A stretch of DNA of 64,000 nucleotides from Mytilus galloprovincialis (Eukaryota > Mollusca > Bivalvia > Mytilida > Mytilidae), in assembly GCF_965363235.1 (NCBI RefSeq), contig NC_134843.1:92413795-92477794 (forward strand). Reading direction: 5' to 3'. The stretch's first letter is position 1; each line of letters opens with the position of its first letter. Both the position numbers and the translations under genes were made by a program. Positions 30,701 through 36,700 of this stretch are shown here, in pieces. A model generated the notes under the pieces. That model had not been told where the DNA came from. It saw only the letters and a list, made by a program, of their open reading frames with translations, and ran no database searches.

Positions 30701-33700
30701 CATGTTAGTCACATGTTTCACGTATGACCGGAAATGATTAGAACTTAAGGACAAAAACAATTTTAATAAATAACTGGACTTCTGTTTCGTGTGAAATGTA
30801 ACGCATAACGATAACGTCATTTTCTTACTTAATTATTACGAAGATCAAAACAAGAACGTAAATCATCTCTGATTTACCTGTTTGAACATCTCGCGAGAGT
30901 TCATGTTTGCATATTGTTTTTAAGAATTCTATTACAACAAAGCAGATTACATCATCTAAAATTTGCGTTACGAAATCGGACACAAAAGTCACGCCACTGT
31001 TCTTACATCTGCTACATAAATACTTATAGTTCTCGGCATTTTCTTCTCACTATTCTTATTGGTCGATGTTCTTTGTTATTTGAAAGCAAAAGTTACGAAT
31101 TTGCCGGTGACGATTATCTATAAATCAGTCAGCGTTATGCTCTTCGGAAGCAAAAAGTAACGCGAGAAACGACACAAAAATACGGTTGTAGAATCTTTGA
31201 AATTCGTATATTTCAATTTTTTTTCTAGGGAAGAGTAGCATACACTTGTATGTTGATAAAAATAATGGCATCTTTAGATGTAGTTACAACTTTTCTTACA
31301 GTAATTCACATTTTATCACTTTTCTATAGTTATAGGAAACGGAGCCCAATAGCAAATTATGGTCCATATCTCAAAAACTCCAGCATTTAGAGCAAATAAG
31401 ACAAGAAGTTAAAGTACTTATTAGGTCAAGGTCTACCTGTCTTGAAATTTTCAGCCGAATTGGGTAACTGGTTTTTCAGGTATAATGCCCCTGAATTGAT
31501 GATTTTAAAGAAATTTTGCAGTTTTTGGTTATTATCTTGAATATTATTATAGATACAGATAAACTGTTAATAGCAAAAATGTTAAGCAAAGTAAGATCTA
31601 CAAATAAGTCAATTTGACCAAAATTGTCAATTGACCCCTTAAGGAGTTATTGCCCTTTAAAGACTTTTTTCACAATTTGTTCATCATGTTGACTTACTTT
31701 AAAAAATCTTCTCCTTTGAAACTGTTGTATCAATTTCAGCCAAACTTAGGCTAAATGAGTTTCAGAGTATCTAGTATAAATTTTATATTTCATTTCCTTG
31801 TATGTCAGAAACATAGCTCCTATGGCTAAAATAGAACATAGGAGAAAATGATTTTTTTTTTGCTTTTGAAGAAAACAGGACGATTCAAAGAACATTTAAA
31901 TAAATTGAAAAGCCAAAATAATCATTGATGAGAGATTTAACCAAAAAAATTAAGGTGAGCGATTCAGGCTCTTGAGAGCCTCTTGTTGTTTAGGGGCCAG
32001 CTGATGCCCATCCCTAGGTGTTGTATTTTCTGGCTGTGTTGAAAACCCTTTGGTGGCCTTCAGATGTGTTCTACTCTTTTGTGAGGTTTTTGTCTCTTTG
32101 ACATGTTCCTCATTTCCATTCTCAATTTTACTGTAAATGTAACTACCTTATACAACCTGTAGTGTTACACTTCCCGACATAGAACTGGATCTCTTTATCC
32201 TGTATTTGTTCACACCATGGGGGTTTAAACCATACAATATGACTGATATGTCCAGCATATACCATTGGTATAATCCAGTTCTCTATACTTAATGTCCTGA
32301 AAAAAATACAATCATATTAAAATAATGGTTTGTTTTTCTGTCTATTATTTTTTTAAATATTATAAATAAACTATGTACAGCAGACATGTGTTTCATCTGT
32401 GAATATATTAGTGACTCTCTAATCAAAAAGTGTAACAATCAAATAAATTACTAAGTTGAAGAGCATTAAATAATGATAATATTTATAATGCTGCAATGTC
32501 CAGACAAAAACTATTAACTTATAAATTAATTATTTTCCTGTCTTATTTGAATATTTATTTTAACAGTGGTAAAATTCTATCCAACTTGACATTTAAAATT
32601 CAATCAATTTCCTACATGTTTCTATAGAGAAAAAAAAATATATACAAGTCATATCTTAAACAAAGATTTGAAAATGAAAAACATTGTTAATAAAAATACC
32701 ACAAAATTATAATTGTTTTAATGTAACAAGGAATTTTTGTGGTACAACCTGACATTTAAAAAAATATCTTGTTTTTAAATTCAAAGGGAGACAATTCATG
32801 TCCTCAGAGCATAGTATCCTGAGTAAAATAAGTATCTGCATTGATTATTAGCAAATAAAGATCAATCCAACTTTTCCATTTACAATTACGAAAATGATAT
32901 TACTCATATAAGACATCTTTCCGGTATACATCATCTGCCTTCATATCACATGGAATCAGTAGATCTGGATGGGAGTCATAATGTACAAATACAATGTCCT
33001 CAACAGGGAGGTGCTTACTGCCAATACCTCTATGGATGAATGGTACGACCTAAAATGTACAAATATAATGTCGTCAACAGAGAGGTGCTTACAGCCAATA
33101 CCTCTGTGGATGAATGGAACGACCTGAAATGCACAAATACAATGTCCTCAATACGGAGGTGTTTACTGCAAATACCTCTGTGGATGAATAGTATGACCTG
33201 AAATGTACAAATATAATGTCCTCAACAGGGAGGTGCTTACTGCCAATACCTCTGTGGATGAATGGTACGACCTGAAATGTACAAATACAATGTCCTCAAT
33301 AGGGAGGTGCTTACTGCCAATACCTCTGTGGATGAATGGTACGACCTGAAATGTACAAATACAATGTCCTCAATACGGAGGTGTTTACTGCAAATACCTC
33401 TGTGGATGAATAGTATGACCTGAAATGTACAAGTATAATGATTCAGGGGTTTCATTATCTTTCATGTTGACTGGTACTTTCCACGTTTCTAGGAGGTACT
33501 TTTCAATTTATTCCATGAATATCTTATATAAAAATTCCTACATTTAGGCGGTACTTGTCAATAGCATAGGAGGGTAAAAGTACCGGGTACTGCCTCCTAA
33601 TGAATGGCCTGTTAATGTCCTCAACAGGGAGGTGCTTACTGCCAATACCTCTGTGGATGAATGGTACGACCTGAAATGTAAAAATACAATGTCCTCAATA

Positions 33701-36700
33701 GGGAGGTGTTTACTGCCAATACCTCTGTAGATGAATGGTACAACCTGAAATGTATAACCATTTAATTATCAACATATGTTTTTATCCAAACAGTGTCATG
33801 AACAATAAATTATCTTTTTTGGAAAGCTCTAAAATTGAAAAATAAAGACTGAAATTGTTGGGTTGTGCAGAATGTTGCTTAAAATATGGACAATGGTGTA
33901 GAATTAACATTTAAATATATTAAAATCTAAAATAAATCTTTGAACAGCTACAAAATGGATGGTGAATAACCATGATTGATAACTTCAATAAGTCGGCATA
34001 CTTTGTATGAAAGTTTAAAGGTAGTTAAAAAACAAATGTTGCCATCTTTTGAAAAATCTCCCTTTAAAAATTGGAAAAAAAATCATCAAAGGATCTTCAT
34101 ATTATTTTTATTTCATGTGTTTTTCATGTTTGATATATATTTCTTGTCTCATGTTTGGCTGCATGCTTTGTGTTTGCCCTTATTCATTTTCTGTGTTTCT
34201 TGTCTGTACTCTTAATTTCTCTTGTGTGTCATGCTTGTCCCGCATTTGATTAAAAGTAAACCGGTGACTTATTCAAAATCAGCCCGCATATTGTATAAGT
34301 GTGATATATGTAATTAAGGCCATCAAATTACTAGGAGTAATATTTTTTTTTCAAATCAAATGCAGTTAGCGGACGCTAACTGGTGACCACAGGATCTTCA
34401 TGTACATGTATATATGACTGGATTATCTCCAAAAACGGCTGAGTAATAATTTCTAGTACCTTTTTTCCTTATTATTTATGATTTTATTTCTCATGCTTTA
34501 TTTTTCACATTTATTAGTTTCAGTGCAATGTTTTATTTCACACAGTGTTCTCCCCAGGATTTTTGGATAGCACCAGGGTAACGCGTGACGAAATGAATTT
34601 TACAGTATTTTGTGTCGCTTTGCGTCGCTTATTTTTTTCTTGTTACTTTTTGTCATTACCTGTTTGCCTTTGTTTTGTTTACTGTGGAACTGTGTTGTAG
34701 GACTTTGGGTCAGAAAATTATTGGTAGAAAAAGTAAATTAATAATCAGTTTGTATACTTTAATATCTTTGAAGAATAAATAAAAGAAAGCACAATTAGTC
34801 TTTAAGCTAAAGTCACTTCTTATATTTTGATCAAGCCATTTTGTCCCGATACTTGTAGTTACACTACACATTCCCCATAACAATGAACTTTGAACAAGAT
34901 TTTTGATACAGAACCTTCAGTAAATTAAAAGCTATTTTCCATAGTTTTAGATCTGATTGTTTTAATTAATTCTTTGTTACAGACATGGAGAGTTCTTTAA
35001 GAGTTTTCTATTCACAAGGTTCATCCCTAGCTTTAGTCCTGCGTGGGAATGTATTAGAGTTGTTGCAGTAGGCTTTTTAGACCTGTTACAGTCAAACATT
35101 ATATATTATTTAATAAATTACCTATTTATTATAATATGTCTGTGCATCAATAATGGTATGATTCTCAAAAATAATTTGCAAAACATTTTTGTTGGTATGT
35201 TCTAAGAATGTTTTCATCCTTAATGTAACATTCTAATATAATTTTGCATTCAATTTGTACTTTATTTTTTTTTGCAATGAGAAATTATATGTGAGGAGCA
35301 TTTATTTGTAATTAGCAAAATCAGGGGAAGTAACTCCACAATTAATTCATCAAGGTTAACCTCAACAGGTAAATCGATCACGTGGTGTAAACAATCATCT
35401 TGTCAATACTGGATTAAACTGGTTAGAACTGGTCAATTTTGATGTAAAGTTGAAGTCATCTGAAACTTTACCGATTTTAATACGATTTTTTTACCGAAAA
35501 CTTTAGCACCACGGAAAAAAATTATACATCGCGGCAAGAACGATACCACCGCGGCAGAAAATTATACATCGCGGGCCCGTGGTCCTTTAAGGGCCTGGGG
35601 AGAACACTGTCACATGTTTCTGCGTTTAGACTCACCCTTCAATTTACCACCCTTGAGTGACAGTCTTGCAAAATTCTTGTACACCGAAAACAATGTGTGA
35701 AAAAATAAACAGACACAATAAGTAAAAATGTCAAAAAAATAAGTGTACAGCATTTAACATCACTTCTTCTTTCTTTCTTTTCTTTTCTTCGTATCAGCTT
35801 CCTATTATAAAAAACACCTTTAACAGGTAATATTTAAATGTTCAATTAGGGTGGGGGAGGTAGACTATATTATCCTCGTGTAATGTGTTTTTGTACTGAT
35901 AACAATTTTCACTGCTTACAGTTTTCACTGTTGATTTTTTATTCACGTGTGTACTCAAGTTTTAAAAAGCATATCAGAGGTCTAGATTTTCAAAAAACTG
36001 TATCTCAGCAATCTGTCCATTATGTAACATTGAACCAGAAGATATGACTCACTTTATACTTAAATGTGAAAAACTGTCAAGCATAAGAAATCGCTTTATG
36101 CAAGAGTTGAAATCTCTTCTCGTAGATTGTAATAAGCCACCTTTGCTAATTCAAGAACTATTTGATGACAAGGAGAATCTTTTACATCTAGTTATAGACT
36201 GTACATCATATCATTTTCTTACCTACAAGGAACAGGTCCGTATAGAGACATTAACCAGAGGTCTGTGTTACAAACTATATCACAAACGTTTACTTTTAAT
36301 GTCCGAGTAAATTTGATTCGCACTTAATGGATTGTGTCAGGATTTATTCTGCAATATTGAGAGATGGATAGTGTTTGAACTGAAAACTCGTATCCAAGGC
36401 TTGTAAAATATCAAGTGGTTTTAGATTTTAAATATTTTATTAGCGTGTTTTATATGGAATAATTGTCTACAAAATGAACAGTGAAACGTTTTTTAGATTT
36501 TAAAGATACCAAGGACAGTGTTTTGAACAGTAAATGCTATTGCGAGGGCAGGAGTATTTTAATTATAGTCTATAACACTATGTTATATGGAGATATAATA
36601 GTGATCCGGTTATGAAACGATTGGACTGTGTAAGATATATAGTTAACTACGTTTACATGGTGATGGATTAGTCCGCATGCTGTATATATGTTACTGATAT

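Follow-up and report, generated by a model that had tools for sequence, protein, structure and literature searches.

An array of eight tandem acceptors ahead of C5orf22 exon 2 in the mussel Mytilus galloprovincialis, with a candidate branch point in the unit next to the exon

Introduction

How is one 3′ splice site chosen when it stands at the end of a row of near-identical copies of itself? This question is raised by the C5orf22 gene (UPF0489, PF12640), which lies on the minus strand of a 64,000-nt stretch of Mytilus galloprovincialis DNA (contig NC_134843.1, positions 92,413,795 to 92,477,794; hereafter the window). Intron 1 of this gene ends in eight tandem units of 74 bp, six at 32990-33433 and two at 33611-33758, each joining the last 14 nt of the intron to the first 60 nt of exon 2. 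Our analysis of the reading frames, the branch-point motifs and the history of the array points to a likely answer, in which the unit directly upstream of the exon would supply the branch point.

Results

Eight copies of one acceptor

We named the units from the exon outwards: U0, which holds the true exon start, then U1-U5, an insertion, and finally U6 and U7 (Table 1). U0, read from 33063 to 32990, continues unbroken into the remainder of exon 2 (33049-32904). A preliminary description of this DNA had recognized the unit at 32990-33063 as the real exon and had counted eight 74-bp units, each with an acceptor and about 60 bp of exon 2; both statements are borne out, as is its remark on the acceptor ends, TAG in the real exon and CAG in the copies (7/7). 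The dinucleotides AG/GT (a slash marks the splice boundary) are present in all eight units. Boundary-crossing tandem units, retained AG/GT and one unit running on into the exon are the features of a 'mirage', the name given in lancelets to arrays of this kind. Tandem Repeats Finder described the main array with a period of 74 (score 754, 90% matches) and also with a period of 222 (score 845, 95% matches), with 0% indels.

U2 and U5, 222 bp apart, differ at only 1 of 74 sites, and U3 and U4 at two. A later duplication of three units, as proposed in the preliminary description, is clear for the U2/U5 pair but not for the other pairs three units apart, which are unremarkable: U1 is nearer U3 (5 differences) than U4 (7), and U0 is equidistant from U3 and U4 (3 each). 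Such a duplication is possible and not required; gene conversion would suffice. U7 and U1 lie at least 5 differences from any other unit, and U0 and U6 at least 3, a mixed picture with regard to the concerted evolution that is expected of the inner, but not the boundary, units of a mirage. When the array was searched against the genome, this locus alone was matched, in two pieces, and a dispersed repeat unit is accordingly not supported; the search skips very common words, so that a single locus is not proof of uniqueness.

Stops follow all seven upstream acceptors

Reading from each of the seven upstream acceptors toward the end of exon 2, we met a stop after 48-66 codons in every case. The earlier claim that an upstream acceptor would shift the frame holds only in part, since three or six extra units (multiples of 222 bp) are divisible by 3 and keep the frame, yet stops lie inside. 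Because all seven upstream acceptors run into stops, the protein is predicted to require the acceptor of U0; use of U7 or of an interior acceptor would lead to a stop codon and probably to RNA decay. A coding tandem repeat and mutually exclusive exons were rejected on account of the same seven stops.

Perfect branch-point motifs stand before the true and the outermost acceptor

According to the scanning model, the first AG past the branch point is used and AGs between the two are avoided, the branch-point consensus being YNYURAY (Gooding et al., PMC1431707). We looked for YNYURAY from 15 nt upstream of each acceptor to 15 nt past its AG-free zone. Perfect matches were found for U0 (TGTTGAC) and U7 (TGTTGAT), in each case with the A placed 25 nt ahead of the exon start, and none within the same limits before the acceptors of U1-U6. 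Ahead of U1-U4 and U6, a G follows the presumptive branch A, both spoiling the motif and placing an AG there. The AG-free zone measures 25 nt for these five units, 40 nt for U0, 71 nt for U7 and 41 nt for U5, which has the inserted element on its upstream side. The TGTTGAC of the true acceptor arises from a G-to-C change private to U1, which extends the AG-free zone from 25 to 40 nt. The looser motif YTNAY, sought at 18-40 nt, gave the same pattern. The cell had been described as having to choose among eight near-identical acceptors; near-identical they are, but not equivalent, the perfect heptamer at the usual distance being confined to U0 and U7. The likely explanation of acceptor choice, judged from these motifs, is that splicing of exon 2 uses the TGTTGAC branch point and the first AG beyond it, the other copies remaining intronic. 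Lancelet mirages are reported to leave splicing undisturbed (PMC3087553, PMC3902484), which we count in favor of this reading.

A duplication at TACATT could have founded the array

Outside the array, the native intron runs ...TGTTGATAATTAAATGGTTATACATT/TCAG and the exon ...TGTTGAGGACATTGTATTTGTACATT/ATGA, the slash here marking the breakpoint. The native intron reads TATACATT and the exon TGTACATT, and the breakpoint word that they have in common is TACATT. It had been suggested that TGTACATT, present both before the acceptor and 60 bp into the exon, seeded the duplication; this fails, as the copy at the true acceptor already lies in a duplicated unit, and the shared word TACATT takes its place.

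We propose that a duplication at this microhomology copied 14 nt of intron end together with 60 nt of exon 2, that the unit then expanded to eight, and that a mobile element later split the array. Given the geometry of a tandem duplication, the native intron end with its branch point would stay on the outermost unit, U7, and the remaining exon on the innermost, U0; the true acceptor would therefore have lost its own branch region. In its place would have come exon-derived sequence containing TGTTGAG at the right distance, which the G-to-C change in U1 would have turned into a perfect TGTTGAC 25 nt before the true acceptor, removing the AG at the same time. U7 is plausibly the oldest copy because it encodes FIYRG (the exon and the other units encode FIHRG) and fits PF12640 best, which is what an old copy at the boundary should do; a later version of the exon would have given rise to the inner units. 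The scores of the six unit versions compared with PF12640 were 152.8 bits for U7, 151.4 for U0 and U4, 150.0 for U3, 145.5 for U2 and 144.9 for U1 (U5 has the residues of U2; U6 was left out).

A mobile element splits the array

Searched against the genome, the 173 bp that separate U5 from U6 had 362 candidates and 40 scored matches, their own locus among these, with 98-100% identity. Eleven other copies that we inspected start with CAGGCC, end with ACCCCTG or nearly so and have imperfect terminal inverted repeats (TIRs); short flanking duplications of about 6 nt were seen by eye at several. By these features the stretch of about 168 bp is a high-copy, non-autonomous TIR mobile element, and the idea that the block is an intron remnant was rejected. 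Since the element lies between U5 and U6, with the CATTA of the unit on either side, the pattern indicates that the eight units were once contiguous and that the element arrived later. The preliminary description had not recognized this insertion. A preference of the element for minisatellites is unsupported: 3 of 13 copies lie in direct repeats (C5orf22 and survey loci L012 and L038, the last of which had been noticed for its repeats), against a background of 8.7% of flanking points lying in local repeats. At L038 (1642-2863), a 75-bp intronic minisatellite beginning about 13 nt past a likely TCP1 donor is likewise split by a 95% copy of this TIR element.

The C5orf22 gene model

A profile search of the genome matched PF12640 exon by exon at a single place, the other match (E = 1.5) being non-significant, and the joined model of the N-terminal 143 residues scored 151.4 bits; the assignment of the gene to C5orf22 is supported. 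The reading frame is continuous across three exon joins. Exon 1 was the top match when we scanned for exon-1 peptides ahead of GT, with the human C5orf22 peptide as reference. With the donor and acceptor weight matrices used throughout, the exon 2 donor TGA/GTAATA (window 32903) scores -4.3 and a cryptic GCA/GTAAGC inside exon 2 scores 0.8. Exon 2 probably belongs to an arginase-like domain, because the closest solved structure by sequence is the peptide arginase 8brp (E = 1.5e-7) and the exon carries a DSHPD motif.

Table 1. Array units, C5orf22 exons and inserted element, in window coordinates
Feature	Position	Strand	Acceptor	Remarks
U0	32990..33063	-	33049	true acceptor and first 60 nt of exon 2
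U1	33064..33137	-	33123	directly upstream of true exon; candidate branch point TGTTGAC; 5 private substitutions
U2	33138..33211	-	33197	1 difference from U5
U3	33212..33285	-	33271	
U4	33286..33359	-	33345	
U5	33360..33433	-	33419	
Element stretch	33441..33613	-		TIR element of about 168 bp, CAGGCC...CCCCTG, between U5 and U6
U6	33611..33684	-	33670	last 2-3 nt replaced at insertion edge
U7	33685..33758	-	33744	outermost; native intron ahead; presumed ancestral acceptor
C5orf22 exon 1	39787..39861	-		25 aa; donor GAA/GTAAGG; phase 0 fits exon 2
Intron 1	33050..39786	-		array fills its 3′ end
C5orf22 exon 2	32904..33049	-		146 nt, VVPFIHRG...DVLY+GA; PF12640 match; phase agrees with exon 3
C5orf22 exon 2 signals				true acceptor TTTTAG/GTCGTACC; donor TGA/GTAATA
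C5orf22 exon 3	32147..32296	-		PF12640 match, phase
C5orf22 exon 4	26479..27205	-		start at 27205; 26479 is the end of the open frame only

Splice-site arrays elsewhere in the genome

We surveyed 73 exon loci: TCP1 chaperonins (30 of 49 matches), proteasome subunits (24/24) and AAA proteins (19/19 scored, of 346 candidates), the individual proteins being what we take to be proteasome alpha 4, beta 3 and various AAA types. Splice sites were called heuristically with the same matrices, and a case was counted when a local direct repeat extended 8 nt or more past the called site in both directions. Seven of 143 called sites were crossed, 1/72 acceptors and 6/71 donors. The donor of L038 was excluded by hand (7/71 with it), the called site lying inside the intronic array and the likely donor upstream of it. 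Among flanking control points, 14 per locus and hence not independent, 89/1022 fell in repeats. The notion that arrays are drawn to splice sites is not upheld, as the donor frequency (6/71) is that of the background (p = 1). The single crossed acceptor lies below background (p = 0.02 vs. controls, 0.06 vs. donors); with 143 sites and non-independent controls, this is no more than a hint that acceptor-side arrays are rarer than the minisatellite background, as expected if an array at an acceptor must first rebuild a branch point.

The donor-side cases, arrays or duplications at proteasome, TCP1 and AAA exons, are L041 (1587-1803), L054 (1657-1770), L088, L089, L090 and L091. L088 and L090 look paralogous, so that six of the seven survey cases are independent. 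The array of L089 may be coding, since its nine 63-bp copies are identical and in frame. The preliminary description had called the expansion of an exon boundary unusual, an opinion to be set beside the lancelet mirages and these further cases at other exons of the same genome.

The acceptor-side array is at L056:581-1635 (G000:C4, around 96674362), where a proteasome alpha exon (GKRPFGVSLLYVGWDKHYG...) is preceded by 18 further CAG/(G or A)TAAA sites, 17 of them in an array whose units, mostly of 43-46 bp, contain sequence derived from the exon. Reading from any of the 18 upstream sites leads to a stop, and 17 of these sites also match a strong donor. The true acceptor has YTNAY at 21 nt, as do 4 of the 18 upstream sites; five of the 18 have it anywhere at 15-42 nt. 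Nearly all sites match both donor and acceptor, which suggests that stepwise (recursive) splicing is worth considering for this array.

Other features of the window and genome

No Rfam match was found in the window at gathering scores. An 84-bp minisatellite of 4.3 copies (6691-7052) lies inside an open frame of 135 aa on the minus strand of the window. Two clusters of near-identical tandem copies of a kinase domain lie at G000:C1:45763305-45812657 and C3:92336287-92352768.

Discussion

Taken as a whole, the proposed history (a mirage founded at TACATT, expanded, split by an element and given a rebuilt branch point in U1) seems to us probable, with appreciable doubt. Calibration of the motifs on the survey gave mixed results. 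YTNAY occurs at 18-40 nt before 24 of the 34 called acceptors with a score above 4 (of 72), compared with 48% of random flanking points (p = 0.007). Several observations weigh on the other side. Part of the YTNAY excess could come from the T-rich tract ahead of acceptors, and the perfect heptamer is not enriched in the same small set (8/34 vs. 18% background, p = 0.27). Five random substitutions would yield YTNAY or YNYURAY in the branch window with a probability of about 0.09 or 0.07, respectively. Five of the seven singleton changes in U1-U6 are private to U1 (five of nine counting two at the insertion edge), an excess weakened by the 4 changes common to U2 and U5 alone. TAG, in which the true acceptor ends, is taken to be weaker than the CAG of the other seven, and by the weight matrix U0 comes seventh of eight, with only U7 lower. 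U7 itself retains its branch point, and we saw no sequence feature that shuts it off. Finally, the branch-point rule is not decisive at L056, which lends no support on its own because several upstream sites share the YTNAY placement of the true one.

The same facts can be read as a neutral mirage, in which exon definition, through the exon 2 donor and enhancers in the remainder of that exon, picks the true acceptor and the TGTTGAC of U1 is a coincidence; a branch point farther away, or TGTTGAG, would do equally well. We regard this as a real possibility, if not the probable one. TGTTGAG or TATTGAG, a single mismatch from the consensus, stands at the same distance before the acceptors of U1-U4 and U6, and the last base of the branch motif is loosely constrained. 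The chance of a motif-creating change (0.07-0.09) is not very small, and the available texts describe normal splicing of lancelet mirages and mention no such change (PMC3087553, PMC3902484). Against it, motif quality picks out exactly the outermost and the true acceptor, and with a donor as poor as that of exon 2 (TGA/GTAATA, -4.3), exon definition from the donor side should be weak.

Three further explanations appear less credible. An intron gain in progress, which we think quite unlikely, would use the U7 acceptor with its native branch point and a cryptic donor in U6 (GCA/GTAAGC, at 33639), yielding a new 105-nt in-frame exon spliced to U0 and adding 35 residues. The stretch from the U7 acceptor to the U6 donor is indeed 105 nt, open and in frame; GCA/GTAAGC or GCT/GTAAGC occurs 31 nt into the exon part of five of the eight units with scores of 0.6-0.8, above the exon 2 donor; and in potato a cryptic GTAAG donor was activated by duplication across an intron-exon boundary (PMC4974935). 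The product, however, would have the beginning of exon 2 twice within a conserved domain, and six acceptor-donor combinations pass the same loose test, so that one pass is not special. Recursive (ratchet) splicing, with each AG/GT copy serving as acceptor and then as donor until the array is removed stepwise, would agree with the presence of AG/GT in every unit and has a possible parallel in the proteasome alpha array of L056, where the true site and 17 others of the 19 read CAG/GTAAA(A or C) with donor scores of 3.2-3.6. At C5orf22 the AG/GT sites of U1-U7 score only -1.1 to -3.7, which are not strong donors, and steps of 46-74 nt would be very short introns; we hold this to be very improbable here. 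The same low standing applies to an error of assembly in the unit number or the entire array: repeats are prone to copy-number error, but the units can be told apart by their variants, a mobile element interrupts them, the whole array is shorter than 900 bp, the assembly search matched no second locus and comparable arrays stand at other exons.

The C5orf22 array belongs to the mirages, with the candidate branch point as a twist. Mirages were described in the lancelet globin genes BflGb6 and BflGb9 and in Adh3 as minisatellite-like tandem copies across an intron-exon boundary (PMC3087553), with further cases in PGBD5, Adh and TnC (PMC3902484). That of BflGb6 comprises the 3′ end of an intron and the 5′ part of exon 2, in 6 and 3 units in two haplotypes, with AG/GT in many copies (PMC3087553), the same layout as in C5orf22. 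The mussel array differs from those of lancelets in that its 74-bp unit takes in only 14 nt of intron, leaving the branch point outside; it is split by a mobile element, and a branch-point consensus stands in the exon-derived last unit. The intron gained in potato RdRp, where a tandem boundary duplication switched on a cryptic GTAAG donor and the new intron was confirmed by RNA (PMC4974935), is similar, as is Rogers' AGGT model, in that the segment copied spans the junction of intron and exon and contains a cryptic donor, GTAAG. Potato has two copies with branch site and pyrimidine tract within the unit; the mussel has eight, and the branch point was not inherited. Weak new introns in Drosophila are buffered by nonsense-mediated decay (PMC2809761). 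Mis-spliced C5orf22 forms would likewise carry stops, which could hide splicing errors from selection, but in Drosophila the subject is intron gain, which we think unlikely in the mussel array. NAGNAG tandem acceptors (PMC3250501) also compete for one exon; their isoforms differ by three bases, whereas the mussel acceptors are spaced by 74 nt and those upstream lead to stops. Our literature search found no mollusc mirage, which is not proof of absence: the available text on abalone reports a 27-bp minisatellite in intron 3 and mentions no boundary copy (PMC6905558), and that of the zebra mussel genome paper held nothing bearing on mirages (PMC9210306).

A broader interpretation, which we offer as speculation and think unlikely, is that boundary arrays are common in this mussel genome, that those at acceptors survive only where the exon-adjacent unit gains a coding-derived branch point, and that the array acts as a two-way switch. 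If so, the native branch point would feed a decay-bound acceptor and the new one the productive acceptor, and unit number would set the amount of protein and vary between individuals. More generally, mirages, as described in the available reports on lancelets, now have a case in a mollusc, and judging by the survey of 73 loci, splice-site arrays do not seem rare in the mussel genome. Near-identical splice sites in a row offer a natural experiment on spliceosome choice; in C5orf22, seven decoys differ from the true site by a handful of bases, one change being predicted to matter. Such arrays illustrate how exon sequence could supply a new branch point where the old one has been lost, and they are plausible raw material for new introns.

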